Assembly (NCBI GenBank): GCA_907165065.1
Contig: OU015540.1
Span: 1,844,001 to 1,908,000 of the forward strand
Direction: 5' to 3'
Source: Caprimulgus europaeus
Lineage: Eukaryota; Chordata; Aves; Caprimulgiformes; Caprimulgidae
Length of the DNA stretch: 64,000 bases
Within the stretch, counting starts at the first letter, position 1. Each line of letters opens with the position of its first letter. Below, piece after piece: positions 20,401-46,959 of the stretch. The translations under genes and the position numbers were made by a program. The notes beneath the pieces were generated by a model. It ran no database searches. It had not been told where the DNA came from and worked only from the letters and a program-made list of their open reading frames with translations.

Positions 20401-23400
20401 ATCAGTGTCCTGCTGATTTCACAACAGATGCTTTTCCATATAGAAAACAAAGTTTTAAGGTTTTCTCCCTGAGCTCTCCTAGGCTGTGCAAACCACGTTC
20501 AGTGATGAGGATCTGCACAACTCCACTTCAGTTTGAACATGTGGCCTGTACTGAAAGCACAGGGAGGAGACTGATCTTGTAATTCAGGATACAGCAATAC
20601 TGCTTGGGGTGGGGAGTTTGTCCCTGTGTTTCAGCTGCCACTACTGAGTCTCTAGATGATGTTTGTTTCACCAGTGATGGCTTCTTGATCTTCCACATAG
20701 GTCAAGACTAGCAATTTTGAGGGGATGGAGTTTGGAGAGCGTTAGGTTTTGAGAATGGGGAAGGGTTATGCTTGCTGTATTTGTCATTATATGTATGGGA
20801 GATCAGCACTGAATGTTCTCCTGAAGTCCTGGCCCTTCTGATTTGCCTTCTCTAAATGTTCAGGCTTTCCCAGTCAGTCCTTCAAGGCTTCACATGTGCA
20901 GCTGCCAGTGAAACAGAAGCAGAAAGGTTTCAAGAGCTGGCCAAAGTCATGAAGAAGAAGAATGTCAAGCTGGGAGAAGACCAGGTCAGTTCCCATGTTT
21001 CGAAATGCAGTGTTTGATGTTGTCATGAAGATAGCAATGAGGATTGTTCAGCAAGAACAAAAACACTTTCAGCTTAAGGGACTAGAACAAATGTAACTGG
21101 TCCAGGCTCTCCATCTCCCAGTTCTCAATTTCCCAGAGGAGAGGAGAAGTCAAAACCCAGTTGGCTAGGTTTCTCAGGATCCAAACCCTCTGATTTTTTT
21201 TTTTCTTTACTTTAGAGCAGAGTCAAATCTTCATATTTGTTTGTGGCTTTTTTTTTTTCTTATGTTTTCATGCTGGTTTCTTTATTTGATGTAAACTCTG
21301 GTGTCCTTTCAGCTGAGTTGCTTAGTGAAACTGGTGACGCTGCATGGGATTCCCAAGGATTTAGATAGCTATCCTAAAGACCTGCTGCTATTTTTGAGGT
21401 AACTGTGCTATGGTTTTCATGTTGTTACCTTAGAATTTAGTGGGAAAAAGAGGTATTACTTTATAACCTTGCTGGTAATGTCTAGTTCATGTTTGATGTA
21501 GATTTCAAACTTGTTCAGGCCTCCTTACAGGGGAAAAAAAAGAAATTGCAGAAGGCTTTGAAAAGGGTTTTAAGGTGCTTCCAAATTCAACCATCCATCA
21601 TATATTAATATAAACACTGTGAAGCTCTTTTAAAATACAGCTGCTTGGATATGGAGTATGGAGTTTTAGTACTCTCTGCCCTCTGTGAATGTGCTTTTCC
21701 CTTAGAACATCAAAGAAAACAAACAGTAGAGTGGATTTCCTTGTTCCAGTAGCTACCCACTGTGGTTCTGTATCCAAACCTTGAACAACTTTAAGCTGAG
21801 TCTCACAAGAGATTCCTTAAGGTGAAAATGAATCTTCTAAACCTGTGGACTAGGATCTTTGGGACAAACAGCTGCACAGAGTTTAGTCTGTGGATGTGGC
21901 AGATGTTATATTGGGCACAATATATGTTGAAGAGCTTTGAACCTGACCAACTGGTTGATATAATTTAGTAGAATTAATGGAGTCTTTGTCCTTCTAGTCC
22001 TTCAGACTATGCAGAGACAGGAAGCTGTGTGCAGTACTTCACTCATATTGGGGAAGCAAATCTTGATGTTCTGCAAAGAGAGTCATCTCAGAGGAAACAG
22101 CTGCTCCTGGAAGCTTTAGCATGCTTGGTACGTGCTCAGGGGACAGCTCTGCACAAGGCTGGGGAGAACTTGGGGTTGTCAGCTGTCAGCAGGAGGAGAA
22201 ATGCTCTTCAGTGCCATCCAGTTCTGTTTAACACCTCTGTCTTGTGTTATTTCAGAAAATTCCTGGCACACAAATAAACGAGGAAAATGCAGAGATTCTG
22301 GGACACCTTGTCTGTGACCTGGGTGGAGAATATATTAGAAGTTCAGGTGGAAATTTGCTGAAGCAATTAAGCCAGTGTGGCTCTTTCCTGCCCGATCAAG
22401 AAGAGGCTATTAGGAGTGTCATCAGCAGCGGTAACACTACATTTGGGTATGAATTTTTCTTCTGGGCATTAGCAAAACGGTTCCCTTAAACAAAACCAGT
22501 GTCCTGTTAAAACCTGAGTGAACTCCAGTCAACCACCTTGATCAAAACCTTGAATAATTCATTGCTTTTGAATTTCACATTGAGCCTTTTACATTGTTTT
22601 ATTGGAACTTCTTTCAGCTTTAAGATTTGGCTGGAATTCCACTGAAAAAGACATTGTCACTTCTGTGTCTCACCTGCTGTAGTTCTAAAAGCCTTTCCTC
22701 TGGTCTGTTTTCATTAACCAACTTCTCTGAGACTGTCCTGGTGAAAGCAGGTGGGCTCTAGCTGTTTGCCAGCCACTAACTGTCAGAAAACGTTGTTTCT
22801 ACCTGTCAGACTGACAAATGCTTGGTAAATCCCTGGCTATTATCTAACAGAGATATTTTCCAGGGAGGCAAAATATTTTCCTGTCCTGTGTCAAATGCCC
22901 TGAATCTTGGTACTGAATTGGGCAATAGTAAGCAGTGATCATGCTAAAGAAAATAATGTGTTTGTTAAATGCCATTTTCCCATCCAGCTGCCTTTATTGA
23001 TGTCCCTAACAATTGCTCCTGCTCTGGTGAAATTAAGTTTTGTGTAACAAATACTGACCAAGAAGTTTTAGTATTGAAATCTTGTATTTTCTTAACTTCC
23101 TATGTTATGAGGACATGATCCTGGCAGCTTTTAAAGTGGGGTTTTTTTGTTATTCTTCCTTGAAAGCTGATTTCTGCTAATTTTTGTATGCAGGCCTCCT
23201 GTAGCATGGTCAGCTTTTACCTTGAGTGAGCTCAGTGGATTGATTCCTGTGTTTGATCACAGCATCTTGCAGAAGATCCCCAAGGTGGGTTATTCACAGA
23301 GGTGTGGGGAGTTTGGGAAACACTCCCAGGTCCTGCAGTATGGAAGAATTCTGATGGAGGTTGTTCAGACAATATGTTTTCAGTAGTGTCTTCCTCTGAA

Positions 23401-26400
23401 AACGTGAGGCCAAAGGGGATGGATGGTCTATGAGAAGTGAGGGTTGATCAAGCTGACAGCCTGGAATGTAGATCAACATCATCCTTTTCCTGTAACTGTC
23501 AGAAGAGTACTGGAGGTGGAAAGCTGTAGTAACTATATACAGTGCTTTGTGAGGAGGTGGAATCATTTATGGGGTGTGGGGTGGGATATGATAGAGTTTA
23601 AACATTTAGAAATTTGCCTTTGGCTCACCAAGGAAAGATCTCTATGCTTATAGCAGCAGGTCTGCTGCCCATAGTACTCAAACAATGAAGTCTCTCTGTG
23701 TGAGTAGCAACTTATTATGCTGGTGGTATGCCCAAGATTGCAGTATCCCCCTGATGAAACATTTTCTTTGCAGAATGCTTTAACTCTTTGGCTGAAAAAC
23801 TTTGCACATGATTCACCTCTGTCAAGGGAACAGCTGGGCACCATTGTTGAAGAGCTCCTGCCTACTAGGCATAAGCGTGCTGATGGTATGGGAACTTCCT
23901 CTGATCCATCATGGCAGCATTCCCCCTGGGGTCAGGGCTGACCCTAGTGCTTGTGGGTCTCCCTAAATGTGTCTGAGTTGAACCATGAAACACTTGGTGG
24001 CAGGTTGCTCAGGGGGAGGGTGGCACCATGATTGCATGCCTGTCCATCTCCAGCCAGGGAGCATTCAAAGCTTGAAGCAAAAGGATTTAACACTGAGCAC
24101 ATTCAATAATTGCTTCAGCAGGTTGCCCACCTGGCAAGCAGATAACAGAGATGGTTCTTGATGATGACACAATGCCTATTCACTACCCACCTAAGGAGTT
24201 ACATGCTTGCCTGAAGAATGTCTCTCTGGAGAATCACCTTTCTCAGATACTGACCTACCCCTTCAGTGTTGAGCAATTAGCTGTGCTGAAGACACATCTG
24301 GATGAGGTAATGCCAGCCTGAAAACTGTCACCTTGTCTGCTGATGACATTGCCAAGGCTCTTGCCCAGTTGAGTTTAAGTATCAACAAGGACTGAGACTC
24401 CACCACCTCTCTGGGCTCCTCTTCCAATGTCTGACCACCTTTACTGTGAAAAGATGTGTTTCTTAATATCTCATCAGAATTTTCACTCCATGTTGGCCTT
24501 TATCCTTTCCCCATACACCTCTGAGGAAAGGTGCTCACGGAATCTCACTGGCTTTGGTTTCTTATTCCATGTTAATTTTGCAAAGAGCAGAAATTCATAA
24601 GCACAGGCATGATAACAAGTGTTCACAGCAGTAACAACAGTCTTTCCACAGACATATCCTGATGGCTATCCTGAAAGGCTGCTCCCCAAACTGGACTCTC
24701 TCCTTTCTTTTGTCACCCCTGCTGATATTTCCAAATGGAAGATCACTTCAGCTGACACTCTGGCTGGCTTACTGGAAAGTCAGCCCCCTAATGAGCAGGT
24801 AGGGATTTGAGTTTGCTTTCCTGCCCATATTTGCTTCCTGGTTTGGGAGCTGGTGGTTTAGGACTAGCTTGGTAGGTTCAGAGATGATTTGCCCATCCTT
24901 GAGGTCCAGATAAATAGATTTTAAATGATTAAATTTTATGTTTGTAAGTCATTGCATTTACTTTTCTTTTGGGGATGAAAACATTCTGATTCAAGTTAAC
25001 TTTTGAAAAAAATAACATGTGTTTCTAGGCTTCTGGGATCATAAACAGATATGTTGGCTTGGGAAATGCCTTGGGTGCCACTGCACTGAAAGCCATTGGT
25101 ACAAAATACGTGTGCCTGCTCAACGAGACAGAGTTGAACAAGATAGACTCCAACAGCTTGAAGTGAGTCAAACATTGTGATGCTCTTGGCTTCTTGCAAA
25201 AGCACTTTCTGATCAATAACTCTATCCTAGCAAAACCAGCACAGTATTATTTCCTTTTTCCTCTCCTCTCTGTGAAAGGAAGTCTAGGAAGCAACTTAGT
25301 ACCTGCTCTGTGTCCAGCTTTAAAAACCTGCTGTTCTCCCTCCTGCCAGGAAGGGCTCAGATGTGCAATCAAACTCTTTTGCACCTCAGCTGACAACAGA
25401 TATGGCCTGCATGCATGCTTTTGTCTAGAGGCAAAAGAGAGTTAATGAAATTTAATTTAAATTCCTTTGAAAGACTGCTAAATGAAAATAAATAGCTATG
25501 TCTTTGCAAATGCATAAAGTTATGCACCATCAGAGCTATCATAATTTAGGAGACATATCATTTTGGGCAGGAAATTGAGCCATTATTTTATTTGCTTTGC
25601 TTCCCTCCATACCTCTTCTATCTCCTGGGGAGAGGAGGTAACCTGTCCCATGTAGGGTATCCCAGAGAGATATTCAGAGTAGTTCAAAATATGTTCAGGA
25701 TGAAGATAATAAAAACTTTTCTCTCCTTAATTCTTCATTTTTCTGCAGAATGGTATATCTGGATCCTTCAGCCTGTTCACAGCCTACCAAAAACATCTTA
25801 TATGCTAAAGCAAAACATGCTTTCTCAGGCCAGCATTATGCAATACCTGCTTACTATGAGCTCATTGAACCTTACCTAGGTATGTAACAGAGCAATATGT
25901 TATGGGGAAGGAGAAAGGTCTCAGCCAGAAACTGAACAGGTATCAAATCCCATCTAAGATGTGGGAATTTTCAAAGCTGAGTTGTTAAAAGTTTCAGAGA
26001 GTTTGGGTCTTCTCCAACTTGTAGATGGCACAAAATACTCTTGAAACATTCTGTACCTGACTTAAAGTTGCCCAAATCAATTATCAGAACATCATGGGGA
26101 AAGTCAAATTCATGACTTCTGGGATGGCTAAGATCTACTAGATCCATGAGAAATCAAGCTGCTAATGTTTGATTCTTGTCTCACAGCTGTTCTCTGTGTC
26201 ACAAAACATAGATTTTTCCCTATTAAGAGTTTATTCACAGCCTGAGCAAACTCTTCTTACCCCCCTGTCTAGAGACTGGCATTGTCACAGGTTGGTTTAG
26301 TGACCAATATCATAACACCTCCTAGCAAAATGAAGTAGCATCCCCATACTTTGCAGCTGGAACTCATTCTGTTAGTAGCCTCAGCCTCATAAATTTTGGA

Positions 26401-28489
26401 GACATCATTATAGCTCCAGCTTATACAGATACTCAGCACTGCTCCCTTGAGAGCTGTCCTCTGTACACTGATATATTTTCTCTTTTTGGTCCCAGGGGGT
26501 GCTCCTGCTGAAGATCTGAGAGCTCTGAGCAGGGACAACGTGAACATGAAAGTTAGTACTTTGGCAAAGTTGAGAAGAGACTCTTTGATGGTGAGCTGAA
26601 TCTTGGAATTGCTTGACTCCTTGCATGCCTGTCGTGCTGTGTAGTTGATTTTGGTCACATTGTCCATTGGTGTAAATCAGGAGTCACTCCATCAAATTCA
26701 GGATGATGCTAGACGAGTAGAAAATGAAGAATGACCTGAAACTTCTTCAGAAATGTGATTTGGAGTCATAAGTGGGTGCTAAGCCAGTCTTACTGGGGAA
26801 TTTCTTGAGAGCAGGCTCTCACAGAATCCCAGAGTGTCAGGGATTGGAAGGGACCTCGAAAGCTCATCCAGTCCAACCCCCCTGCCAGAGCAGGAACACC
26901 CAGATGAGATCACACAGGAAGGCATCCAGGTGGGTCTTGAACGTCTCCAAAGAAGGAGACTCCACACCCTCCCTGGGCAGCCTGTCCCAGGGCTCTGGCA
27001 CCCTCACAGTAAAGAAGTTCCTCCCCAAATCCAAGCGGAACCTCCTGTGTTCCAGCTCACACCCACTGCCCCTTGTCCTATCACTGGACACCACTGTGAA
27101 GAGCCTTTCATAGCAGTAGTGGCAGGAGCAGGGGCCAGGTGTCCACTACACTGCAGTCCACAGCTCCATGACAGATCTAACACCAGTGTTAGCAGTAATA
27201 TCACCAATCAGGAAGAAAGCCCCCTGATTTCACTGGGGCAGGGACTGGGGCTCCCACTGGGGTGCAGGAGCCTTGTTATCAGAGGACAACAGTCTTTGAG
27301 CATCCATGGTGTCCATTCCTCTAGCCTAAGGCAGGAGTGTCCCAGCTGAAACCACTCACCAGAAATGTGTCTCCCTTGTTCTCCACACTTGTGCTACCAG
27401 AAGTTGTGTTGTCTCTTTGGTCAGAGGTGTTGTTTCCATTCCTGCATTGACACCCATAACTCTTGCTCTTTGATTTCACCTAGAGCCTGACGCCTTCTGA
27501 GGTTCGGGGCTTGCTGGGACTGAACCTTCGTGATCTACCAGAGTGGCAGAACACATCTCCCATCCGGGAGTGGATCCGGATGCAGAAGCAACCAGAGCTG
27601 GATGAACTCAACATTGGGCTCACGGGGGGAACACAGGAAGGTTACATCAACATCGTCACACCCAAATTCCAGAGTAGGTATTGCGCTAGCACCTCTGATT
27701 GTTGTGCTTTAAGTGTTTATTTTTGGGTTACAATGAGGAGAAAAACTGCCTCATGGAAGCAAAGTTCCTCATGGAAGCAAAGTTCCTTATGGAAGGAAAC
27801 TGCCTCATGGAAGTTTCAGTTGTCTGTAAGAGAGAAGTGGATGCACCAAGCTCAAGTCAGCGGTGGCTTTGGGCAGCGCTGCCAAACCGCTCTGGTCCAG
27901 CTCCCAGCAGTGCTTGTGCCAAGGCCCTGGAATGTTCTGCTGGTTGCTCATGTTGGGAGAGCAGAGACTGTTGATCTGGGCTACTGCAGACCCCCTCCAG
28001 TGGCACTGCCCCTCCAGCCAGCCCCTTAAAGCACACTGGGCAGTTGCTCACCTCCTCCCTTCACCTCCCAGCATCGAGGGGCAGCAAGTTCAGTTCTGCT
28101 GAGGAGCCTTAAGCCTTGTAGAGGAAACTTGGGGTCCAAGGTGAGAAACAAACCAGTAACCCCCCCAAGAACATCCTTGCTGGCTGAATGTCTCAAGTGA
28201 GTGAACACTTCCAGAGCTTCCTCCTCTGCTGTGTGTTGGATGTGGGCTGTGAGTTGGGGGTGCTGGTAGGTGCCTGTTCACCACAGTTAGGAAGCCCTCG
28301 TCAGAAAGACAAAGATCTTCCCTGGAAGTGGCGTGAAGAGGGAATGGTTCAGTTGTCAATTGCTTTGCACTAATGCCCCTTCTTTTTCCTCTAGCACCAT
28401 CCTCAGCCTCTCTGGGTACTGTGGCCATGGCACTCCACCTCCTGCCTGCTCTGCTTATCAGTTTGGTGATGATGTCCATCTTGTCTTGA
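8356..28489 (+). CDS. MSLN: Mesothelin (long form), GPI-anchored cell-surface glycoprotein
   Basis: Exons: 8356-8425 and 12566-12593 (both tentative), 13271-13460, 14529-14690, 15033-15235, 15641-15732, 16414-16544, 17163-17284, 17697-17868, 18170-18385, 18493-18663, 19651-19797, 19933-19982, 20864-20984, 21313-21398, 21998-22127, 22256-22446, 23194-23284, 23774-23885, 24122-24306, 24652-24798, 25029-25162, 25749-25879, 26496-26590, 27484-27673, 28395-28489. All phases join, giving about 1153 residues. From exon 19933 onward it follows mammalian mesothelin: DLLLFL, a furin-type [30 protein letters not shown], and a final exon with a small-residue stretch and hydrophobic tail typical of GPI attachment. 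Mammalian mesothelin is about 630 residues, so roughly 535 residues here are extra at the N-terminus. They resemble the stereocilin/otoancorin relatives ([30 protein letters not shown]). The start is the least certain part: the ATG at 8356 encodes a signal-like [14 protein letters not shown] and joins in phase. Mesothelin binds MUC16 in mammals; that is not shown here. Confidence 0.88.
10307..10335 (+). repeat. (CCT)n microsatellite
   Basis: Nine or so perfect CCT triplets form a polypurine/polypyrimidine tract inside the proposed first intron of MSLN. I see nothing else in that intron (8426-12565) beyond unique sequence. Confidence 0.9.
23867..23878 (+). other. MSLN: Furin-type cleavage site codons (RHKR) in MSLN
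   Basis: The codons agg cat aag cgt encode R-H-K-R, which fits the R-X-K/R-R proprotein convertase consensus. The site lies five residues before the cysteine of GCPPGK. In mammalian mesothelin precursors a furin site at the equivalent place releases the N-terminal MPF fragment from membrane-bound mesothelin. Cleavage here is inferred from position and consensus. Confidence 0.75.
26818..27110 (-). mobile_element. CR1 LINE fragment in MSLN intron
   Basis: The segment begins 'cacagaatcccagagtgtcag', continues 'ggaagggacctcgaaagct' and runs to the 'ccttgtcctatcactgg' block. This is the reverse complement of a CR1 3' region, lying in the intron before the penultimate MSLN exon. Confidence 0.9.
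27743..27810 (+). repeat. Short tandem repeat, 20-bp unit
   Basis: A unit close to 'ctcatggaagcaaagttc' recurs about three and a half times with a few substitutions, in the last intron of MSLN (27674-28394). The rest of that 721-base intron is unique sequence. Confidence 0.8.
28395..28489 (+). CDS. MSLN: MSLN terminal exon: GPI-anchor signal and stop
   Basis: After the acceptor 'ttcctctag' the exon encodes [12 protein letters not shown], a run of small residues suitable as an omega site, followed by the hydrophobic [18 protein letters not shown] and a TGA stop at 28487-28489. There is no charged cytoplasmic tail, which fits GPI anchoring rather than a transmembrane helix. Confidence 0.85.
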
Positions 28490-31262
28490 AAATCTTCCCT
28501 CAAGAGAAAGCAAGATGAGGGGGACCAGCCTATGACCTGCCTGTCGGGGACAGCCACGCCTGGGACTGAGGGGGTGCTCAGTGCTAGCAGGCAACTGTTA
28601 AGCAGCCCAGGGTTCAATTTTAGGTACTTTTGTCTTTCAAATCACTTGGAAAAAAACCAAACCAACCCATGTTCCGTCTGAAGGGAGAATTTCAGTCTCT
28701 TCAGAGCAGGATCTTTGCCTGGGACCAAGCCCAGGTGAGCCCCAGCATTATCACTGCAACGCAAACGATGCCGCTGCTTCACTGCGCAGCTCGGGTGGGT
28801 TTGGGGGTGAGCAGGTTGGCTCCTGTGCATGTAACAGTTACACTGCTCAGAGAGCCTGATCTCTCCACACTGCCAAGACCTCGGAGTTGGGAGTGAAGTT
28901 TTCCAGCTGATTGTAAATAATTCATGGGAATGAGTAAAAAATGCCGGAAGCAAATGGATGAGTCGCTCTTGTCTTCCCTCAGACTCCCTGCGCCTCCTGT
29001 CCGCAGAGTTGCTCCTGATTAAGTGGTCAGGAACCCCAGAGGTGCCCGTTACTTTCCTTAGGTGGTGACTACTCAACACCAGGGAGCTGAGCCTGTTCTC
29101 AGCTTCCTCCTGGGGACAGTGTAAGAACTTTGTGTAAGATACTCAACACTTTTTTTTCCACTCATTGGGAATTTTTATCCAAAAAAGCTGCAGCTTCACT
29201 TGTATCCAGGCCCTGAAATCCCCCTTTTCCTGCAGACTTCTGGGCCCCCACTGGCTGCATCCCGTGGTGCTGGGGCACTGCCTGGGGTGGGAGAGCCCAC
29301 TGGACAGTCTGGGTTTAAACAGCACTGATCCCCTGATAGAAATCTTGGTTTGTTTCTTTATGCCTTGACTCACTCTCAACAAATGACACACAAGAATCTC
29401 CTCAGCCCATGGAGAATGAAACTGGTAAGTGGAAGATCTGCAAGTTGGAGGGAGAAATATTCTCTTGTAGTAGAGCTATTGGAGGGGGAGACACTAGATA
29501 ATGAAGAAAGCAAAACAAGTGGAAACTGTTTAGATTTAAACTCACTAGAAAAAAAAAACAAACAACCTACAATACAAAGCACTCAACACATCAATTTGGT
29601 TAGGAAAAAAAAAGTTGATTCATGTTTTATTATATAATATATAATTATATTATTGTAACAGAAATCAAGGTAAAACTATCTTCAGTTAATCATCCCTTCA
29701 ACTCAGCTTTGTGTTGTTTGAACAAATCTTGATCAAAAATCTCCTAAGCTCAAGAAATGAGTTAAATGCAGTCAAGTGGGTCTCTGAGCTTTCAGACTGT
29801 GTGGCTGGGCCATATTCTGCTGCTTTCCCACCAGCCAGTAACTCCAATCCCTGAGCTGTCCCACGGTTTCAACAGATCCCAGTGGGTGAGAAGTAAAATA
29901 TCACTCGGTGCAAGTAGAGCTGGCAGAACTGGGCCCACTGTCAGCATCAGGGTTATAAACTGGGAGAGGGGAGATGGAGATGAGATGTGAGGAAGAAATT
30001 ATTTGCTGTGAGGGTGATGAGACCCTGGCCCAGGTTGCCCAGAGAAGCTGTGGCTGCTCCTCCCTGGAAGTGTCCAAGGCCAGATTGGATGAGGCTTTGA
30101 GCAACCTGGTCTAGTGGAAGGTGTCCCTGCTGCTGGCAGGGGGGTTGGGACTGGAGGAGCTTTATGGTCCCTTCCCACCCAAACCAGTCTGGGATTCCAT
30201 GATTCCATGGTCAGACCAGTCAATATTGCTGGGAGTTGTATTGCACAGAGCAACGAGCTGGTGAGTACCTGTTGGACTGGGAAAATCTGTCCTTTTTCCA
30301 CTGCCCAGCCTCACAAAGAACAAGCAGCCTCTGTGCTGGTACCAGATGGACAAACTCTGCCTTGCCCAGGTTTGTGCTCTGCAGCAGGAGTTGGCCAGCG
30401 CCGTTCTTTTGCAGGGTGGTGGAAATTCCCGGAGCGGGGCAGCGAGCGGGGGGCGGCGGGGTCAGAGCAGCCCTCGCAGCAGCGAGCTCCCCACGGCTGC
30501 CATCAGAACGGGCAGGAGGCAGCAGGAGACTCTGGATCCTGCTCCTGGGTGGAGAAAACACGAGGAGAACTTGGATTATCCAAAGGACACACAGGAGCTG
30601 TCAGGGCAGTAGAGCTGCTTTCGGATGCAGGAACCCCCGAAGGTCACACGTGTCCAGACATTTTTCTGCCTGTTGTGACATTGCCCACAGCTGCTCCTCA
30701 AGCAGTGACCTGCACCCCTGCTCTAAATGTCACCTGGCTGAGGACAGCCAGCAGGACCCAGGCTTTCCTTATTGTCACCAGCGTCAAGCAGGAGCAAACC
30801 TGCTGGAGTTTGGGTGCAGCTGTGTCTGGTTAAAGGACTGCAGAGCTTTTCTGGTGATGCCTGGTCAGAAACCACCTGCAGTTAAAGTTCAGAGCCCATC
30901 TCCCTGCCTTGTGGAGGACAGCACCGAGCTCTGGGATTAGGGGAATTACTCCAGCTTTCTGTGGAGCCCTCGAGGGCTGCTGTGCCTGATCAGACATCTT
31001 CAGGTGCACCCTGCCAGGCTGGGGAGCACACGGGCTCTGAGGGCAGCGCGCTCCAGATCCAGGGGCTGTAACGCCCTGGAGATCCACGTTGCTGCCTGTC
31101 TCACCAGTAACTACTTGAGGTTTCTTGCAGACAGCAGCACCCCAGTATTGAATCTGGCCAGAACAAGGTGCATCAGCTGCTGCTTGGTGGTGGACACTGC
31201 TGCCTCGCTGCCTCACCATCGGTTCCTAAACCCTGTCCTGACCCTGACCGTTCCCACCTTAC
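28490..31262. other. Intergenic region between convergent MSLN and MSLNL
   Basis: The stretch should hold the 3' UTRs of MSLN (+) and MSLNL (-), and possibly a last MSLNL exon that I could not find. It contains a CR1 copy at 29958-30208 and an AT-rich patch at about 29622-29660. Two overlapping + strand open frames of about 235 codons (30114-30940) partly cover the CR1 and have no recognisable content, so I do not call them genes. Confidence 0.6.
29958..30208 (+). mobile_element. CR1 LINE fragment
   Basis: The copy is sense-oriented, from 'gagatggagatgagatgtga' through 'gcccaggttgcccagagaag' to 'accagtctgggattcc'. Confidence 0.92.
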
Positions 31263-32646
31263 CAGCTTCAGGGTGCAGGTTGATGTATCCAGGGGGTGTT
31301 CCTCTCGGTGGCTCTGGCACGCTGTCAGGTGTTTTTTTAGTGGTCTCACTGCTGGTGGTGGTGGAAGATGGGCCAAGAAATGCTGGAGGGGCATCAGTCT
31401 GACAAGCCAATGTTGTAGTCTTGGGTGTTGATGAGACGAAGCTCTTTTGGGTGGAGATGGTGGAGTTGGGAATTGGGGTGGACTTGTGGGGAGGGAGGCT
31501 CGTTTCTGTGGCTGTGGTGGCAGCGGGTACAGAGGTGGAGTTGGGGACAAGGGTGTTGGGAGCATTGTGGGTGCTCAGGGTGATGGTGTTTTGGGTGGCA
31601 GGAGCAGGGTGGGTGGTACTCTCGGGTGCTGGGGGCTTCAGGGACACCAGTGGGGTGTTGGTGGTAAGAGCTGGGTTAGTAACAGCAATGGTGGTGGTGG
31701 TGGTGGGCTTGTGGGGAGGGAGGTTCATTTCTGTGGCTGTGGTGGCAGTGGGTACTGAGGTGGAGCTGGGGACAAGGGTGTTGGGAGCGTTTTGGGTGCT
31801 CAGGGTGATGGTGTTATGGGTGGCAGGAGCAGGGTGGGTGGTACTCTCGGGTGCTGGGGGCTTCAGGGACACCAGTGGGGTGTTGGTGGTAAGAGCTGGG
31901 TTAGTAACAACACTGGTGGTGGTGGTGGTGGTGGTGGTGGCTCTGTGTATGAGAGCAGGGGGTGGGATGGAGCTGGGAGAGGTGGCATTGGGTTTGATGG
32001 TGCTGAGGAGGGTGCCAGCAGGGGGGGTGGTCTTATTGGAGGTGACAGACTGGTGGATGGAGCATGGGATGATGGAGCCAGTGGTTGGAGCAGGTTGGGT
32101 GGTAGAGGTGGTGGTGGGACTCCCAGCAGCACTGGGGACAGTGGTGTAAGTGCTGTCAGGGGGGGTCGGGCTGATAACACTTGGGGTGGGGACCTTGTGA
32201 GGGCTGGTACTTGATTGAGGGTGGCTGCTAATGGCAACAGGGACAGTGGGGACAGTGGGGAGGGTGGTGGCTGTGGGGACCTTGTGGGGGCTGGTACTTG
32301 ACTGAGGGTGGCTGCTAATGGCAACAGGGGTGGGGACAGTGGGAAGGGTGGTGGCTGTGGGGACAGTGGGGAGGGTGGTGGCTGTGGGGACAGTGGGGAG
32401 GGTGGTGGCTGTGGGGACAGTGGCCGTGGGGGTGATGCTGGCTGAGGTGGTGGGGTGAGGAGGGGTGGCCGTCCCCGTGGGGCTGGGCTCCTCCGTCCCC
32501 CCTTGCAGACCGATTCCCAGCAGACAGTCCAGTTCCCTCTGGGACTGCCTCTTCACCCAGCACATCACCAAGGTCTCATTTTCAGCTTCTTTCAGGGCAG
32601 GAAGATTTTCCCCCAGCAAATTTTTCACGTCCATCACGTTGAGTTT
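31263..32646 (-). CDS. MSLNL: MSLNL exon carrying the mucin-like insertion
   Basis: This 1384-base exon starts in phase 0 and ends in phase 1, exactly as the homologous 190-base MSLN exon (27484-27673), so 1194 bases were gained in frame. The inserted region is made mainly of Thr, Pro, Ser and Ala. It contains a 9-residue unit TVPTATTLP repeated about four times (27-bp unit, about 32338-32430), a longer unit containing [15 protein letters not shown] used twice, and a 75-residue unit in two tandem copies. Dense Thr/Ser next to Pro predicts heavy O-glycosylation. The open frame on the opposite strand (31421-32149) is a shadow of this composition. Confidence 0.85.
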
Positions 32647-35600
32647 CTGCCATACAGGTACAACAACACCATCACCATCAGCTCTGCTCCTCCTCCCAGC
32701 CAGCAGCACCACAAAGGGCTTCTCTAACGGGACTGCAGAGCAAGAAAGATCTCCCAACAGAAAATTATCAAAGGTAAACTAAAAAACAATCGAGTCTTGG
32801 TGATGGGATGGGGCTGCAGCCTCAAACCCCACCGCTCAGCCCTCGACTAGTCCTTCAGCAGGGGCAGGAGTCACACTGTGCCAGGGATGTACCTGCAGCT
32901 CATGGGGATTCAGGCTGAGGAAGGTCTCTATGTCCATGTCAACTCCAGCTTTAGCCAAGTCCTTCAGGTCCTTTGCTGGAGCTCCACCTTAAAAAAAAAA
33001 AGGATATGGGGCACCTAGACAAGTGCAAACACTTCCAACGCTTTTGGAGGGTTTGCCAGAGCTGTCTCTGTGGTGGCCAAACCCCCTTGGCCAAGGAAGA
33101 GGTATCCAACCTCTGTCACTGTGGGAAAGAGGGTGAAGGCTGAAGCACCTACCCAGGTACGGCCAAATCCGGCAGTAGTATGTCCTGGAGGTGCCAGCCA
33201 GGCCACTGAAGGCCTCCTGGGCTTTTCTGTAGAGTTGGTCCTTCTTGGTTTGAGAGCAAGAAGAAATGTTTAATTGTCCAGCAGTCCTGGGGAGAGGGAG
33301 GGTCACAGGTTAGACCCCAAACCACCTTTTGTTGGTAGGGGAAGATGAGTGGTTTGTTCCCACTCGTGGTGCTGGTGGCTCAGACAGGAGCTGGGAGCTG
33401 GACACGACCATCCCACCACCCTGCCTGCCAGTGGGGAGAGCCAAAACAGAGATGGGAGTCTGCCATCCCACCATCCACTTCCCCTGTGGTCCCAGGGACC
33501 TCCTAGGACCAAAAGCATCCCTAAGAAGAGGCTTACCTGATTGCTTCTGGGGGAATTTCATTGATCTGCTCCTCCTGCAGATTGCACAGCTCTTCCCCAC
33601 CGATTTCCCGCAGCAAGAGCCCGGTCAAGGTGCCCCCCAGGGCCAGGTACCTGCTGATCAGCTGCTGGACCTGGGAAACACAGTTGAGGTGGTTGCACGT
33701 GGGCAGGTAAGGAGGATGCTCCTGGTAGAAACGCGTGCGCTGCAAAACCCTCGTGCCACCCTCGGGCAACGCCTTCCCCTGAGCTGGGCTTGGGCACTGG
33801 GTGTCCCAGTTTGGGGTTCACCAGCATCTGTGGGCTTACCTGGGCAGGCTCCCACTTGCCATCCGAGGGGTCGAGCAGAGCTGACAGCGTGTCACTGGAG
33901 GTCACCGGCCACCGGCTGATCTCCTCCGCCGTGTACTGGCGGGACAGCAGCCCCAACAGCTTCAGCTGCTCCTCAGGGATCCCCGACGGGTAGATCTGTA
34001 GGGCCAGGCCCGTGGGGCAGAGAAGAGGGTCAGGGAAGGGAGAAGGTGGCAGAAAGGGGCACAAAGGACCTGCTTGGGCACCTCCATCCCCGCAGGCGGC
34101 GATGCCCATCCCCGCAGCGTGCCCGTGCTGACGGGGGGCTGCGCGGGGTCCCCTGCCCGGTGTCACCCATCACCTGCTCCAGCTTTTTTTTCATGACCAG
34201 GAGGTACTGGACGGGGAGTGGCTGTTCCAGCAGAGGTTTCAGGTTTGCTTTTAAAACCTCGTTGCTCAGGCAGAGCTCGAACTGCTCGCTGGTGTCGTAG
34301 GTGAGGGGTAAGATGTCGTCGGAGATGGTGCTGGCAGTGATGGGCTCGGACAGGCAGCCTGTGGGCAAGGGGACACGTCAGGCAGACTGTGTTTCCTCCC
34401 TTCCCACATCCCTTAAAGTGATTCCTGAAGAACCTGCTGATGTTTCTGCAGAGCACATGCACTTTGTCCTGCTAAAGGCCCCGGCAAGGTGAACCCTTTT
34501 CCACATCACCCACATGAACATCCTCTGCTCTTGCAGCATCATCCCCGGGCTCTACCCCTGCACAGCTCCAGGAGCTTTTATCCAGTGCTGGGGCCACCAA
34601 CAGCACAAGGACATGGAGCTACTGAAGCCAGTCCAGAGGAGGCCACGAGGATGATGCCAGGGCTGGAGCAGCTCTGCTGTGAGGACAGGCTGAGAGAGTT
34701 GGGGCTGTTGAGCCTGGAGAAGAGAAGGCTCCAGGGAGACCTTCCAGTGGCCTCCCAGTACCTGAAGGGGCTCCAGGAAGGCTGGGGAGGGACTTTGGCC
34801 AAGGGCAGGGAGTGACAAACAAGGGGTGATGGCTTGAAACTGGAAGGGGGAGACTGAGATGAGATGTGAGGAAGAAATTCTTTGGTGTGAGGGTGGTGAG
34901 ACCCTGGCCCAGGTTGCCCAGAGAAGCTGTGGCTGCTCCTTCCTGGAAGTGTTCTGGGCCAGATTGGATGAGTCTTTGAGCAACCTGGTCTAGTGGAAGG
35001 TGTCCCTGCTGATGGCAGGGGGGTTGGGACTGGATGAGCTTTGGGGTCCCTTCCCACCCAAACCAGTCTGGGATTCTCCCCACTTCCAGCTCCTTCCCAT
35101 CTGCTGCTGCTGTCCTGCTCCCAGGTAAGAGCAAACACCCTGTCAGTCTGTAAGATGTTTCTCCATCTCCCCAGTTACTTCACAGGAATCCTACAGCTTT
35201 GTGCCCCGTCCTGTCCCCCTCCCTGGGGACACCCAGACACCAACCAGCCCAGGGATGTTTCCCCCCCCCCCCTCAAGATCTCTGACCTGCCCCAGGCTGG
35301 CCACAGTGAACGGGACCACTCACGGTCTGCGCTTCTCTTCAGCCTGGGGTGAGCTGAGGTCCTGGCAGCTGTGAAGGCCCTGAGGAGGGTCAGGGATTGC
35401 TCCCGCTGGGATCGTCCCTGGCCCCTGTAGGCGGCCGCGATGCTCCTGCCGAAAGCCTCCCGCGCTGCCTGCCCGGGGAGAGGGTGCTGGGTGCCACAGC
35501 CCCAGGGCTGGCCTGGCTGATGGGCAGCTCACCCCGAGGTCTTGAGGAGGGGACTTACCTCGGCCACCATGCTCACTGTGGTCTGGTTCAAAGCCAGCAC

Positions 35601-38600
35601 GAGTGGCCCCAAATTTTGCAGAGTCTGTAGCCCCCAGCCCGAAGGGTCCCTGCAGGCAGCAGCAGAAGGATCAGCTCAGCATCCTCATGGGTGCTCATCC
35701 CGCCTGCTCGTTGCCCACCCCATAGGAGCAGGTGGAGGCTCCTTACCCATACGTGGTGTCCCCTCTGAGGAGCACGGCGTTGAGGGCGTCCTGCTGGGTC
35801 TCTGTCAGCGCTGGGCAGAGCTTCAGGTTCTCCAGGATGCTGGGATCTGAGGCTGTGATGGTCTCTGGCTCCATGTCACACACCAGAGCCCCGAGGCTGC
35901 TGAGCTGCTCGGGGCGCAGGCGGCTGCTCCTCACCCCCTGTGAGAGATGACCCAGCCCTTGTACAAGCACCCAGCGAGGGGTGGGGGACCCTGGCCACCC
36001 CCAGCTCTGTCCCCACTCACCAGGCAGGTCAGTGCCCCGTGCAGCAGCGCCGTCCTGCGGGCTGAGCCCCTGGGCAGCAGGTCCAGGTTCCCGCGGGATG
36101 CCCGGGCGTAAAAGGCTCCGCAGGTCCCACCAGGAACCTCGGCTGGGCTGTGGGGAGCAAGAGTCAGCACGGTGGGGAGGAGTGGGGAGAGGGGTCCTCG
36201 TGTCTGGGCAGGAGACCTTTAATGTTGCTTTTTGTGGGGAGCATGGGGAGAGTTGCTTTAAAACAGAATTGGGGAAGGGTTTAGAGGGGAAGGGTGTGAG
36301 GAGAGGCTGAAGTCACTGGGTTTGTTCAGCCTGGAGAAGAGGAGACTGAGAGGAGATCTCATCATGGTCTAGAGCTTCCTCCCAAGGGGAAGAGGAGGGG
36401 CAGGTGCTGAGCTCTTCTCTCTGGCCACCAACACCAGGAGCAGAGGACATGGCAGGAAGATGTGGCAGGGGAGGGTGAGGTTGGCCTCCCTGGGGAGGAC
36501 GTTGGGCACAGGATGGGGACACCCACCCCACACACCCCATGCCATGGCCAGTGTGGCCCCAGCCTTGGAGTGGGGTGGGGTGAGGAGCAAGGGGTCTGCA
36601 GGGCTGGAAATGCCCCGTGTGGGTCTGAAGGTGCCCACAGACGCAGGTGATTTTTGTAATACTTCTCCCACACAGACTCCCATGTGCCAGGGCCGTGCCA
36701 GCCTGGGCTGGATGATGTGATTCAGCACCAACCCCCCCTGTGTGCTGCCCTCGATACTCACTCAAAGAAGAGCAGCAGGTCTGGTGGGTACCTGTCGAAA
36801 TCAGCCGTCAGGTTCTTGGCAGCGAGCAGCCTGGCCAGGCAGGAGAGCTGGGCAGAGAGAGCTTGATCTTGGTGATGCTGAGCTGGTGAGACCCCCCCTT
36901 CACCCTGGCATCCCCTGGCTCCCCGTGCCCCATGGGGCTCTGGGGGGTTTGCAGCCCCCAGCCCTGCCCCTGCCCACCTGGGCACTGCTCAGCTCCGTGG
37001 GTTTGTCTGGCAGACCCTGGGCAAAGTCACGGATGGTGGCAGCGGGCAGGTCACGGTCTGGGATGCACTGGAAACCTTGGAGAGCCGAGGCTGAGAGGCT
37101 GCGATGGGACGGGATGGTTGAGTTTCAGCATCTACTTCAGCTCCTCAACACCCCATGGAGAACAAACCCGCTCATTCCCTTGGGAAAATCCCTTCCCCGT
37201 GAGCACGGCTGCGTGGGGTAAGTGGGAATAACACGGGGTGGCATGAAAATGTCCCCTAAAGCCAGTGTTGGGGTGGTGCCAACGGGGATGCCCTGCAGAC
37301 ATCAGGGTGCCCATGCCCATGGCTGGGGTGATGCCCACCCTGTACCCCAGGCTTTGGGTGAGGCAGAAACCAGCAGAGCTTGGGGGGGAAGTTCCCGTTC
37401 ATCTGCCTCAGCCCCGCAGAGGAAATTCCTGGTGTGTTTGTGCTCCAACAAAAGGCGCCGCAGCTGCAGCCCCAGCCCCGGTGCCAGCACCAGAACCGGC
37501 TGCGCAAGGCTCTAAATCCTCTCCAGCCCAAGTCACCTGTCACAGCGGCTGTCACACGGACCTGGGGAGAAATGCAACACCCACCCATGCCTGCCCCACA
37601 CCCCCTGAGGCCCCCCCCCTTTAGCAGAGACCCCGGCTGGGGCTGGCACTTACTCAGCGTGTTGCTCCGTGGCAGCCAGGACGGCTCCGATGATCAGGGC
37701 AGCCTGGGGAGGATGATGAAGGGACCTTCAGCCCAGTGAGGAATGGGAAGAAGGGTTTTTAAACACAGGGACCGAGTGGGGAACGGGATCTGACCCGGCT
37801 GGTGTGCCCAGACCGGCTGCTGCCGGTGAGCTGGGAACCGCAGCAGCCCCGAGGCTGCCCTGGGTCACACGTGGGGACAAAAGCCACCACAGCCACTCTC
37901 AGGAGTGGGGACACTTGAACAGCGGGTCCATCCCTCTTTCCCTAGAGCTGGGAGTGCTGGGTGCCCATCGGGTTTAGGGTCCCAGCCCTGTTTGGGAGCA
38001 GGGCAGGGAGGCTGCAGGGCGAGGGATGGGATGGGGCAGGGACAGGGCTGCACAGGGGACCGGCGGGGAGGTGGTGTCTTTGCCTCCCTGCAGCTGAGGA
38101 CCAGGGGAGCCGCAGCAGCTCTGCCTCTCCCGGCATCAGCTGCGATGTTTCGGCAAAGCTCCGGCGTATCCAGAGCCACGAGCAGCGGGGGGGGACTCAC
38201 CACTGGTGCCTTCAGGAGGTCTGGGGAGAAACCTGCAACGAAGTGGGCACAGGTTATAAAACATCCATGTTATAAAAGATCCATGCTAGAAAAATCCAGG
38301 GTATAGAATCACACAATCACAGAATCCCAGACTGGTTTGGGCTGGAAGGGACCTTAAAGCTCATCCAGTCCCAACCCCCTGCCAGCAGCAGGGACACCTT
38401 CCACCAGACCAGGTTGCTCAAAGCCTCATCCAACCTGGCCGAGAACACTTCCAGGGAGGAGCAGCCACAGCTTCTCTGGGTGACCTGTCCCAGGTTTAAA
38501 GTCTGGGAAAGGTCTTTTCTTTGTCAGTTTAATAATATTTAGTGAATGTTGGCTGACAGTACAGAGAGCAGCCCCCGAACTGCCCCGCAGCCTGTGCCAG

Positions 38601-40222: not shown

Positions 40223-42204
40223 TGTGAAGAAGGAGGAATAAAAAAAAAAAAGGCAGTTTTTCCCAGGCTGTGGGATGAGGACCCCGAGGAGCCCGACGCT
40301 GTGCGGCAGCGAACGCGTTATCTGAGCACTGATCCCGGGACATCCCGGCTGATGTCCCCGTCCCCCACCGAGCAACCGGTCCTGCAGCAGCAGCAGGGCT
40401 TGGCCAACGCCCACGGGTGTTTCTGCTTTCTATTTTGGAAGGATTTGCTGTAAAAATAGCTCCTGTTGCAGTGGTGAAATTACAGAAACTCGTTTGCTAT
40501 GAGGCTGCTGGTGGGCCACAGCCCCCGCCGTGGGCTGGCTGGGCAGAGGTGGCTGGAACGGGGAGGGACACATCAGGGCCCCTTTGTGGGTCACCACGTC
40601 CACCATGTCCCCATGGAGCTTGAAATTGGCCCTGAAACAACCTCAGGAGGAGCAGGTGCAGGAGCATCCACCCCAAACCTGAACGTGCTGGGAAGCATCT
40701 GCCCAAGCTCCTTCCCTGGGGACCTTGGGGGTGGGTCGTGGGCACTGATGGTAGGTGGGTGATGGGCACCAACTGCATCTCCCCACACTGGGTGAACTGG
40801 AAACACTCTTCACCACCTGCTTCTCCACCCTTACCAGGTTTATAACCTTAAAATCTCACAACCTGAAGACCGCAAATAATTCCTTTGGGTCTTCACTCAC
40901 TTCTCCAGCTGCTCCAACCCAAGGAGCGACTGTTGATGTACAAGTGTGATATAGAATTGATGTGTGGTGGCAGCTTCCCCCATGCACCCCCAAAACACCA
41001 GCAGCCCCGGAGCTGCTCCCCCATTTCCCTGCCAGGGAACACTGTGCTGTTTTGAAATGATGAGTTTTGCTTCCGTCCCTGCTCTTTGGTTCAGGACAAT
41101 CCCAGATGTTTGTGCTGACTGGGATGGGCAGGGACGGGCCAGGGCAGTGGCATCTGCCCCAGCTTCCTCGAGCATCCTCGGTCATCTGTGTCAGGGTTAC
41201 TAAATCTGAGAGGGCTTCTGGGTGGATAATCCTGGTGGTTTCGGCCAGGGGGATTTCATCAGGGTGAGGACGAGCGCTGGTGCTCACATGACAGGTCGGC
41301 TGGGTTGGAGCTCTGGGACTGGTCCCGCTGTGCCGGTCTGGGCTCATTCCTGGAAGCCCCCAGCACCACCAGCCACGCTGCAGAACCATCCCACCCCACG
41401 CAGCGTGGAGAGACCAGAGGGAGAAGTGCAGGACACGTACACCAGGGATGGTTTTTACTATGGTCACGTGCAACAAGACCTGGGGGTTAGCGCGGCGGTA
41501 CAGAACGGCACGAGACACACGCAGAGCCCACCCCAACCCCCGGTCCCAGCGGCCTCACGGGCCATGCAGCGAACATCCCAGTGACAGCAGAGAGGAGGGA
41601 GCAGGAGCAGAGCCTGGAGAAGACCTCTGCAGGGTAAGGAGAACATCTGTATCTCTCTATATCTATATTGCTCTGGTTCCTGAAACGTTGGGTAGAAGTG
41701 CAACCAAGGCACAAAGGCTGCTGGGGGTGCAGATGGTGGGGTGGGCACTGGGTGCCACTGACCATCAGCATCCCTTTGTGCAAGGTCACCACTGTGTCCC
41801 CATGTACCACCCCCAGTGACCACCAGCCCCATGGCTGAGGGCAACCTTGTCTCAGACACGTCCCTGTCACACAGTGGGGACCGTTCCCACGCTGGGGCCC
41901 ATGGGAAGGGACGGCTGTGTCCCACCTCTGGTGCTGCAAATCTCTCCTGTCACTTTCCAGGGCCTCCTGCGCACGTCACCCACCGTCACTCTTTGGCAAA
42001 CAGGTTCATGGTGTGAATTTACAGCCCTGGGACACGCCTGTGGCTGCCTGTCCCCTCCCCAGCCATTCCTGGGAGGGACAGATAGGGATGGGGCCTGGAG
42101 GGGAGGAGATGGATGGCAGCACTTTGTGCCAAGCCATGAAAGTGAGGTGACAGCCACCCTGTCCCCAGCCACACACCGCTCTCCTCATCTTCTAATCGTC
42201 CTCT

Positions 42205-42830
42205 ATGGGCTGCACAGGATCCCAGAGTCCCATCACGAACCCAACACTGCCCAGTCCCCACTGACCCATGTCCCTCAGCACTGTGTCTACACGACTCTTC
42301 AATCCCTCCAGGGATGGGGACCCCACCACTGCCCTGGGCAACCCGTTCCAATGCCTCAGAACCCTTTCAGCAAAGAAATTCTTCCTCACATCCCATCTCA
42401 ACTGCCCTGGGCACAACTGGAGCCCATTTCCTCTTGTCCTGTCCCTTGGTCCTTGGTAGAACAGACCCACCCCCACCTCTCTCCACCCTCCTTGCAGGGA
42501 CTTGGACAGAGCCAGAAGGTCTCCCCTCAGCCTCCTTTTCTCCAGGCTCAACACCCCCAGTTCCCTCAGCCTGAACTCAGCACACTTGTGCTCCAGACCC
42601 TTCCCCAGCTCCGTTCCCTTCTCTGGACACGCTCCAGCACCTCCAGGTCCTTCTTGGAGTCAGGGGCCCAACACTGAACCCAGCACTCGAGCTGCGGCCT
42701 CACCAGCTGCCCTCACCAGTCCAGTGGGAAGTGAACTTCCCTGGTCCTACTGGTCACACCAGTGCTGATCCAGGCCAGGATGCTCTTGGCCTTCTTGGCC
42801 ACCTGGGCACTCTGCTGACTCATGCTGAGA
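42205..42830 (-). mobile_element. CR1 LINE fragment, longest copy
   Basis: This copy, the longest in the window, is the complement of a CR1 3' region. It includes 'cctcagcactgtgtctacac', 'gcaaagaaattcttcctcac', 'cttttctccaggctcaacac' and 'cttggccttcttggccacct', the last being further 5' in the element than other copies reach. Its short open frames carry stops and it is not an active element. Confidence 0.9.
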
Positions 42831-44256: not shown

Positions 44257-46443
44257 TCACTGCAAAGCCCACTCAGCCAGCCACTGCTCACACCGGCCCC
44301 GCTGCTCCTCCGCCTCCGGGCCCTTGGCTTCACTCCGTGACTCCTCTCCCTCTCCACCAAGCACAGCTTCTTGGCTCTCCTCCTCTTCCTCCTTCTGCAT
44401 TGTCTTGTCCTTCAGCTCCTGGATGGTCTCGTCCAGCCGGTGAGTGACGTGGTGGGGCACCCAGTTGCTGTCCATGGCGGTGACGAAGGGGTCGGGCGCG
44501 CAGACCTCGATGAGCTCCTTGCCGGTGGGGATGCGCAGGTAGTAGGCGTGGAGCATCATCCTATAGGGGCTGCTGTCCTTCTTGTGGCTGTAGGTGAAGT
44601 CCCCCACGATGGGGTGGCCGATGGCGCTGCAGTGAACCCGCAGCTGATGAGTCCGCCCTAGGGAGAGAGCAGGAATGGAGGAATTGGTGACACAGGTCAT
44701 CCCTGAAACCCTCCTCGAGGGAATGGTGGTGTGAGGTGACAATGCACCCAATGGCACTTGTACCCCCAGTCAGAGAACTGAGTCCTCTACAAGCTGAGCG
44801 TGGTCCTCAGCTCCACTCAGCCCTTCCTAGGGTTTGCTTTGCACCGTGTGCCCACGCTGATGCCAAGGCCCAGGGCTGTGAGCGCAGGTCCTGCTGCCAG
44901 CTCTGCCCAACTGAGCACAGCATCTTAGAACCATCGAATCATGAATGTTGTGAGTTGGGAGGGACCCACAAGGATCATCCAGTCCAACTCCTGTCCCTGC
45001 ACAGGACAATCCCAACATTCACACCATGGCCCTGAGGGCCTTGGCCAAATGCTGCTGGAATCTTGTCAGGCTTGGGGCCATCAGCACCTCCCTGGGGAGC
45101 CTGTGCCAGTGCTCCACCACCCTCTGCCTCAAGAACCTTTTCCTCATGGCCAACCTCACCCTCCCCTGCCACATCTTCCTGCCATGGCCTCTGCTCCTGG
45201 CGTTGGTGGCCAGAGAGAAGAGCTCAGCGCCTGCCCCTCCTCTTCCCCTTGGGAGGAACTTCCAGACCATGATGAGATCTCCTCTCAGTCTCCTCTTCTC
45301 CAGGCTGAACAACCCAAGTGACTTCAGCCTCTCCTCACACCCTTCCCCTCTAAACCCTTCCCCAATGTTGTGTCCCTCCTCTGGACACTCTCCAGCAGCT
45401 TTAGATCCTTTTTGTCCTGTGGTGCCCAAACTGCCCCCAGTGCTGGAGGTGAGGCCACCCCAGTGCAGAGCAGAGCGGGACGATCCCCTCCCTCGCCCAG
45501 CTCATGGTGCAGTCTTGTCCTGTTGGGGACAGGCACTGGGCTGTGCCCGACCCCATGGGCCACATCTGAGCTCCTGGGGCTGCAGCCCCCGCTGTGCCCA
45601 CGCTGCCCCATCCCCAAGCTCCCACCTGTCAGCGGCTGCAGCAGCACTTTGGTTACGGGGTCTCCGCTGTAGGAGCCGTGCTCCAGCACGATCAGCTCCG
45701 ACTGGCAGGGCTTGGGATTTTCACAGCCTGCAACGAGACCCGGAGCGGGGTCAGCTCCCCGCAGCAGGACCTGGGTGGTGCGGGCAGGGCAGGGCAGGGT
45801 GCGGGAGCCACTCACCCTCCGTCCCATCGATGCACATCATGTGGGTCATGCCCTCGGTGGTGTTCTTCCCTATGGCGTAGCGGATCGTCATCCGGCTCTG
45901 GCTGACGTGGCCCCTCACCTGCCGGGCAGAAAGATGGTTGGCAAACCAAGGTCTGGCACTTGCTCCTCACAGCCACCGGGACAACAAGAAGCAGAGGCCA
46001 AGCTGCAATTGAACAAGGTCAGATGGTACACCCAGAAGCAGGACCTGGTGGGGTGGGCTTACCAGGGCGAGGTAGGCTTTGGTCACCAGCCGGTCCTTGA
46101 AACACTTGTAGGCGCTTCCCGCCGCTGCTTTGTTGAGCGCGACGCACAGAGCCCCGCTGGTGGAGAAGTCGAGCTGGTGGCAGAACCTGGGGAGGAGATG
46201 GGGGGTGGAGGAGCATCCCAGGCACGTGAGGGTCCTCGGCAGGCAGGAGCCCACTGCTCACCTGAAGCCGTAGTAGGTGTCGGGGTCGGCCAGCTCGGGG
46301 AAGCGGTGCTTGAGCTGGCTCTGCAGGGTCAGCGTCTCGTACCACATCTTGCTGTCGATGCGGATGTCCCAGTGCTTGTTGACCACGATGAAGTCGGAGC
46401 TCTGGTACAGGATGGACAGGTTGTCGATGGTGCCCGGCTCCAT
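44257..46443 (-). CDS. RPUSD1: RNA pseudouridine synthase domain-containing protein 1
   Basis: Five coding exons in transcript order: 46443-46262 (its exon starts at 46453 after a 'ctgcag' acceptor, so a non-coding exon lies upstream), 46186-46063, 45918-45816, 45727-45626, 44657-44257. Phases join to give 303 residues, close to the roughly 310 of the mammalian protein. The RluA-family active site is present as [14 protein letters not shown], where the Asp is the catalytic residue that attacks the uridine. The second family motif [11 protein letters not shown] spans the last intron. The C-terminus is a low-complexity Glu-rich tail ending [10 protein letters not shown], similar to the mammalian ending. 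The family isomerises uridine to pseudouridine in RNA; the substrates of RPUSD1 are not well defined. The gene is divergently arranged with CHTF18 over a shared CpG-rich promoter. Confidence 0.97.
44925..45480 (-). mobile_element. CR1 LINE fragment in RPUSD1 intron
   Basis: The complement of a CR1 3' region from 'catcgaatcatgaatgttgt' to the 'ctggacactctccagcagct' block. Close relatives lie in CHTF18 introns at 55098-55455 and 58094-58580. Confidence 0.9.
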
Positions 46444-46624
46444 GGCCAGCGCCCTGCAGGGAGCAGGAATTGGGGTGAGCTGGGGTGGGAGCGGACAGTC
46501 TCCAGGCTGTGCACCCCTGGGGGTGGGGACAGCACCCCAGGGAGTGAAGGGACCCCGTGAGAGTGGGCAGAGAGCAGGACCCAGAGGGCCTGAGGATGGC
46601 ACTGGTGCTGCAGCTGTACCAGGG

Positions 46625-46955
46625 TCACAATGCACGGGTCCCAGAGCGACACCAGTGTCACACAGCATGGGTCCCAGTGTGATACTGGTGTCACACAGCA
46701 CGGGGCCGAGTAACACTGGTGTCACACAGCATGGGTCCCAGTGTGATACTGGTGTCACACAGCATGGGTCCCAGAGTGACACTAGTGTCACACAGCACGG
46801 GTCTAAGAATGACACCAGTGTCACACAGCGTAGGTCCCAGAGCACTACTGGTGTCACACTGCATGGGTCCCAGAGTCACACCAGTGTCACACAGTGTGGC
46901 TTCCAGAGTGACACCAGTGTCACACAGCACAGGTCCCCCAGCGCTACCAGTGTGA
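46625..46955 (+). repeat. 33-bp minisatellite upstream of RPUSD1
   Basis: About ten tandem copies of a 33-bp unit close to 'tgtcacacagcatgggtccc' plus 'agagtgacaccag' occupy the interval between the RPUSD1 start exon and the bidirectional promoter. Because 33 is a multiple of three, frames stay open on both strands, which explains long artefactual open frames here. On the RPUSD1 strand the array lies in the 5' intron or leader. Confidence 0.9.
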
Positions 46956-46959
46956 CGCC

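Follow-up and report, generated by a model that had tools for sequence, protein, structure and literature searches.

The question raised by this locus is why one exon of a mesothelin-like gene should be 1384 bp long when the corresponding exon of the neighboring mesothelin gene measures 190 bp, and what the additional sequence encodes. The window that we analyzed is a stretch of 64,000 nucleotides of the Caprimulgus europaeus genome (contig OU015540.1, positions 1,844,001 to 1,908,000; C16:1844001-1908000 in the genome-wide searches below), and the positions given here count from its first letter. The reading that we prefer, with a probability of roughly 0.6, is that MSLNL specifies a GPI-anchored protein whose linker has grown into a mucin-like segment of ~400 residues by in-frame tandem duplication.

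On the minus strand, MSLNL was modeled as 13 exons running from 37098 to 30462, with GT-AG borders throughout and 976 encoded residues, not counting a signal-peptide exon. That exon was not found: no candidate passed the strict threshold, and none of the three candidates from another scan was accepted. The most upstream exon recovered, exon a (36978..37098, 121 bp), stands at Pfam profile position 61 and is followed by exons b (36762..36847, 86 bp), c (36021..36147, 127 bp), d (35747..35937, 191 bp) and e (35559..35649, 91 bp). Exon f (35324..35468, 145 bp) ends in a predicted furin-type site, RLKR-SAD, after which exon g (34174..34358, 185 bp) begins the mature mesothelin-like part; exons h (33840..33995, 156 bp), i (33537..33670, 134 bp), j (33153..33286, 134 bp) and k (32893..32987, 95 bp) then lead to exon l (31263..32646), the exon in question. 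The last exon (30462..30544) is in frame with exon l, has an acceptor score of 7.0 and encodes GAGSRVSCCLLPVLMAAVGSSLLRGLL followed by a stop, a predicted GPI-type signal that would stand behind the insert and whose tail was scored as hydrophobic by script. This hydrophobic stretch ends the exon, a layout other than the transmembrane and cytoplasmic one of the tethered mucins. Compared to the curated cut-off of 25.8 bits, the match of the modeled protein to the Pfam Mesothelin family (PF06060) reached 324.2 bits (E 1.9e-96), and no domain except Mesothelin, hence no SEA domain, was found in it at E 0.01. Rfam gave no match between 20000 and 45000. As far as it was modeled, the gene looks intact. 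At 44260-44769, also on the minus strand, there is a pseudouridine-synthase-like frame, probably RPUSD1, a neighbor of MSLNL in mammals.

The short paralogue MSLN next door serves as an internal control. It lies on the plus strand, tail to tail with MSLNL, from a first exon match at 20865 to 28489, and its last exon (28395..28489) carries a GPI-type signal. The two proteins share 34% identity over 454 columns of an alignment that enters the insert slightly. Five exons have equal lengths in both genes (d, 191 bp; e, 91 bp; g, 185 bp; i, 134 bp; k, 95 bp), and the lengths of the others differ by 33 bp (f), 9 bp (h), 3 bp (j), 12 bp (last exon) and 1194 bp (l). At the place equivalent to RLKR-SAD, MSLN has a predicted furin-type site RHKR-AD, both being recognized by the furin consensus. 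When the whole genome was searched with the Mesothelin profile, at least nine matches were obtained, all of them within MSLN and MSLNL; along the 624 positions of the profile, MSLN matches to 622 and MSLNL to 584, where 40 positions remain. The gene had been named MSLNL from its letters alone, and this identity is borne out by the Pfam score, by the exon lengths and phases shared with MSLN, by the furin-type site and by the C-terminal GPI-type signal. These are the features of the Mesothelin family, from which MSLNL differs by a 402-residue Thr/Pro/Ser-rich segment ahead of the anchor. LINE-like text, presumably of the CR1 type, is present in an MSLN intron at 26867-27145, and text of a similar kind lies at 42195-42659.

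In MSLN, exon l (27484..27673, plus strand) is 190 bp long, is entered in phase 0 and left in phase 1, and has no insert. For hen MSLN, the part of PMC3163210 that concerns amplicon 3 gives an expected product of 202 bp, and by our reading the primers start 12 bases before the exon acceptor and end at the last base of the exon, which agrees with the 190-bp form. In MSLNL, the same phases enclose 1384 bp in one open frame, with an acceptor ...ATGGCAG ahead of 32646 and a donor GTAAGG beyond 31263, so that the coordinates, borders and phases proposed in the sequence-only reading were confirmed. The exon encodes ~50 residues that match mesothelin (the PF06060 match covers residues 44-95 of its stop-to-stop frame), the insert (31291..32496) and then GYINLHPEA (31264..31290), the counterpart of human GYLVLDL... 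in the shedding segment 582-598 as a passage of PMC10035497 delimits it. The end of the predicted superhelix, the mucin-like segment and GYINLHPEA are all contained in this single exon. Across the junctions the protein reads ...IGLQGGTEE, the insert, then GYINL..., and the conserved text noted earlier on both sides is in place, with LQGG before and GYINLHPEA after. The insert had been put at ~398 residues; a recount gives 402 between LQGG and GYINL, or 399 net of the TQE found in MSLN, while its richness in Thr, Pro and Ser stands.

The 402 residues comprise 107 Thr (27%), 76 Pro (19%) and 51 Ser (13%), which brings Ser plus Thr to 39%, together with 25 charged residues, 2 Cys, 3 aromatic residues and 4 N-glycosylation sequons. 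This composition is held throughout, as all 303 windows of 100 residues contain 34-44 Ser plus Thr and 14-23 Pro, and the description of the insert as mucin-like is upheld by it. A stricter mucin-like (PTS) cut-off asks for 40 Ser plus Thr per 100 residues, and only 142 of the 303 windows reach it. In keeping with the mucin-like PTS criterion, tandem repeats of 27, 84/87 and 225 bp lie in frame in a single exon. In a charge-hydropathy test, the insert and the helical part were both scored as not disordered.

An alternative to a coding insert is that it represents an unrecognized intron, or that this copy is untranscribed, in which case the protein would be ordinary. The open frame alone is weak evidence for coding. 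Counting stop-free stretches down to 25 aa, the window contains 1602, of which the 521-aa one in exon l is only the fourth longest; the three that exceed it all overlap a tandem array, at 61869-63103 or 46618-46937. The former array is a 1.2-kb minisatellite with units of 40, 61 and 101 bp; six frames of 431-623 aa that lack a stop, spread over both strands, overlap it, and open frames in repeats therefore mean little. The latter, with units of 33 bp, lies in a 591-aa stop-free stretch of the plus strand (46277-48049), possibly coding, that also holds a perfect 12-bp CCCGAGGAGATC array at 47486-47530.

Long open stretches are present in the insert on the reverse strand (248 aa) and in frame 1 (210 aa) as well, as an intron would allow, but the insert has exactly 402 codons and no stop, and among 2000 dinucleotide shuffles frame 0 stayed open in 3 and any of the three frames in 6. 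Exact repeats within it are always spaced by a multiple of three (all 13 distinct spacings of 18-mers and all 38 of 12-mers), compared to 5 of the 14 tandem arrays in the rest of the window whose period is a multiple of three; the control counts one period per array, and spacings within one array are not independent. Splice sites were scored with a weight matrix, the donors being GT sites only. Some internal acceptors, at up to 4.1, outscore several acceptors of the gene as well as the weak one of exon l itself (0.9), which would suit an intron; however, acceptors at 31270-31400, near the end of the insert, score at most 1.0, and the best donor score among 47 internal GT sites is 0.3, against 1.3-7.6 for the 12 modeled donors of the gene. 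An intron within the insert was rejected on the grounds that no internal donor matches even the weakest donor of the gene. The rest of MSLNL is intact as modeled, and we regard an intron or a silent copy as improbable. The shuffles, the spacings in threes and the weak internal donors support the earlier view that the insert is coding, and it would then be translated as part of MSLNL.

The repeats point to how the insert could have grown. A 27-bp repeat (TVPTATTLP) is present in 3.5 copies at 32330..32423 according to Tandem Repeats Finder, an 84/87-bp repeat in 2.1 copies at 32186..32364, and a 225-bp (75-residue) duplication, with 95% matches, at 31477..31931, all on the minus strand. All spacings are multiples of three, and growth by in-frame tandem duplication, as first suggested from the letters, is supported on this point. 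In the 84/87-bp units, 31 codons were compared, and the five substitutions are all silent (P about 0.002), with one inserted codon in addition. The 225-bp copies, compared over a core of 67 codons, differ at eight of them; two of these changes are silent and six replace the residue, which equals the expectation without selection. When both pairs are pooled, 7 of 13 changes are silent (P 0.04-0.07). The two pairs inside exon l thus contrast, one changing mostly by replacement and the other only silently.

A genome-wide search of the assembly (1.18 Gb in 121 contigs) found the whole insert at this locus only. Thirty-two further matches cover bases 25-263 of the insert alone, at 69-78% identity; the one that was inspected (L002) contains 64 tandem copies of TGTCCCCAC, and this unit occurs five times in exon l. 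This common minisatellite motif, which reads Thr-Val-Pro in the frame of the insert, may have been the seed of its growth. For bases 264-1206, no match elsewhere in the genome was obtained at E 1e-5 in a search that skips simple repeats, and their composition is like that of the rest of the insert. A dispersed-repeat origin for most of the insert was rejected because these bases are unmatched at this threshold. Drift of the sequence at constant composition is usual for mucin-like segments, and it would fit a tolerated filler too.

The insert might accordingly be the outcome of neutral growth, in which a minisatellite common in the genome expanded in a flexible-linker exon that tolerates in-frame Thr, Pro and Ser, giving a segment that is translated and without function. 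The resemblance of bases 25-263 to dispersed sequences, the 64-copy array with its unit recurring in the exon, and the replacement changes that dominate between the 225-bp copies are what such growth would leave; the 84/87-bp units, however, differ only silently, and the larger part of the insert keeps its composition while lacking any genomic match in that search. Weighing the two sides, we consider neutral growth unlikely, though far from negligible.

To return to the preferred reading, a stalk grown by tandem duplication, its position in the protein could be judged against human mesothelin. MSLNL aligns to solved human mesothelin at E 8.3e-43; an ARM/HEAT superhelix, the fold of the family, would be expected for it. 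Five human mesothelin sequences were matched in the PDB search, and two of the constructs end within three residues of LQGG (the alignment ends at residue 282 of 285 in 8fsl_E and at residue 158 of 159 in 8cz8_M, in each case at LQGG), while 7ued_M and 8cxc_M run 25 and 33 residues further and 7u9j_A stops earlier. In full-length human mesothelin, according to passages of PMC10035497, the model is ordered up to G585, which lies four residues past LQGG, and residues 582-598, the 17 that follow LQGG, contain most of the major shedding sites. The insert replaces human 582-584, the start of this shedding segment. It had been described as lying inside the superhelical fold, and this part of the sequence-only reading had to be given up: the insert comes directly after the last helix, and an insertion within the superhelix was rejected given that the LQGG junction is at the end of ordered human mesothelin. 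An AlphaFold2 model of exon l, built from two sequences only and of low confidence (mean pLDDT 40.7), has helices at residues 4-11, 20-33 and 36-43 and then no structure to residue 461. Because it stands directly after the last helix and before the GPI-type tail, the insert is predicted to be a membrane-proximal stalk between the folded body and the putative anchor. Mucin-like modules are common in this juxtamembrane position.

A suggestive link to MUC16, the mucin partner of mesothelin, had also been drawn, and it fared no better: Pfam finds only Mesothelin in MSLNL, and the genome has a MUC16-like SEA array of its own. SEA-domain matches number 39 in the genome, 33 of them in a tandem array on the plus strand of another contig (C27:1964286-1993845) that repeats at intervals of ~1.3 kb along much of its extent; in the array, 20 matches correspond to N-terminal and 13 to C-terminal portions of the domain. 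Since a tandem array of SEA domains is the hallmark of MUC16, the usual MUC16-like partner seems to be present in this genome. A role of the insert as a mucin ligand is not supported.

The superhelix could still bind glycans on its own mucin segment or on that of a neighboring molecule, acting in homotypic adhesion or as a brake on MUC16 binding. The title of one paper calls mesothelin-MUC16 binding N-glycan dependent, the abstract of another proposes the family as superhelical lectins (PMC2628672), and four N-glycosylation sequons lie in the insert. However, a passage of PMC10035497 maps the MUC16-binding region of human mesothelin to the N-terminal 64 residues, and the PDB alignment of MSLNL to human mesothelin runs from query residue 28 onward, omitting the start of this region, whereas avian MSLN aligns from its third residue. 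On the other side of the interaction, the docking study PMC12143179 modeled the contact of mesothelin with MUC16 at a SEA domain and not at the Thr/Ser-rich part. With a MUC16-like partner in the genome as well, binding of MSLNL to its own mucin segment appears very improbable.

In the stalk reading, the short stretch that joins the last helix to the membrane anchor would have become a mucin-like segment of ~400 residues within one exon, driven by repeated in-frame tandem duplication. The high content of Ser plus Thr and of Pro, with few charged and aromatic residues, suggests that the segment is most likely densely O-glycosylated, stiff and extended. At 0.2-0.28 nm per residue, a rule of thumb, it would span roughly 80-110 nm and could hold the mesothelin superhelix high over the membrane and its sugar coat. 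Because the human shedding segment lies mostly behind the insertion point, cleavage of MSLNL at the corresponding place would release the stalk together with the ectodomain, yielding a superhelix in soluble form with a mucin tail attached.

Such an arrangement has counterparts. GPI-anchored receptors whose stalks are O-glycosylated and rich in Ser, Thr and Pro, CD55/DAF for instance, likewise combine a folded binding part, a mucin-like stalk and a GPI anchor, but with another head, and the predicted MSLNL stalk is several times longer. Tethered mucins such as MUC16 share with MSLNL a repetitive Thr/Pro/Ser-rich segment in a single long exon; MSLNL differs from them in being far shorter, in having no SEA domain and in carrying a GPI-type tail in place of the transmembrane and cytoplasmic part. 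The family and the kind of module are both known, and what is new is a predicted mucin-like stalk, of large size, in MSLNL. If the segment is translated and kept in birds, it illustrates how, within a single exon, a short linker from ectodomain to GPI anchor can be extended into a long mucin-like stalk, and a stalk of variable length would offer an easy way to adjust how far mesothelin reaches and how it is shed. The interest of the locus lies in a clean pair of neighboring paralogues, in the size of the stalk and in existing proteomic data that are able to test it.

A further step would be that in birds MSLNL acts as a self-contained lectin-plus-mucin adhesion molecule, whose shed form crosslinks or organizes mucus gels in the oesophagus, in the oviduct and eggshell membranes and in seminal foam, its reach or stickiness being set by repeat length; we offer this as a long shot. 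Among the papers listed, no title or abstract opening describes a mucin-like segment in MSLNL, a medaka paper that mentions MSLNL once (PMC8573258) contributes nothing further, and of the papers retrieved with mesothelin and 'mucin-like domain' none is on MSLNL by its title. The passages on avian MSLNL do not state which part of the protein was observed and leave its architecture undescribed. In favor of the stalk reading, MSLNL of birds has been reported both as RNA and as protein. In the passages concerned, ostrich eggshell contains a 'Mesothelin isoform X1' labeled MSLNL, with chicken eggshell membranes cited (PMC5039028), and zebra finch eggshell a protein 'similar to mesothelin' (PMC4666066), each of which could be MSLN or MSLNL. 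MSLNL RNA appears in infected duck, in spleen (PMC11123779), and in quail lines (PMC4587967), again in partial extracts of these papers. MSLNL protein is reported, in the corresponding extracts, in vesicles from tracheal cells of the chicken (PMC8780788) and, in Table 1 of PMC12853081, in quail seminal foam, and MSLNL RNA in chicken oesophagus is described as oesophagus-associated in a passage of PMC12665336.
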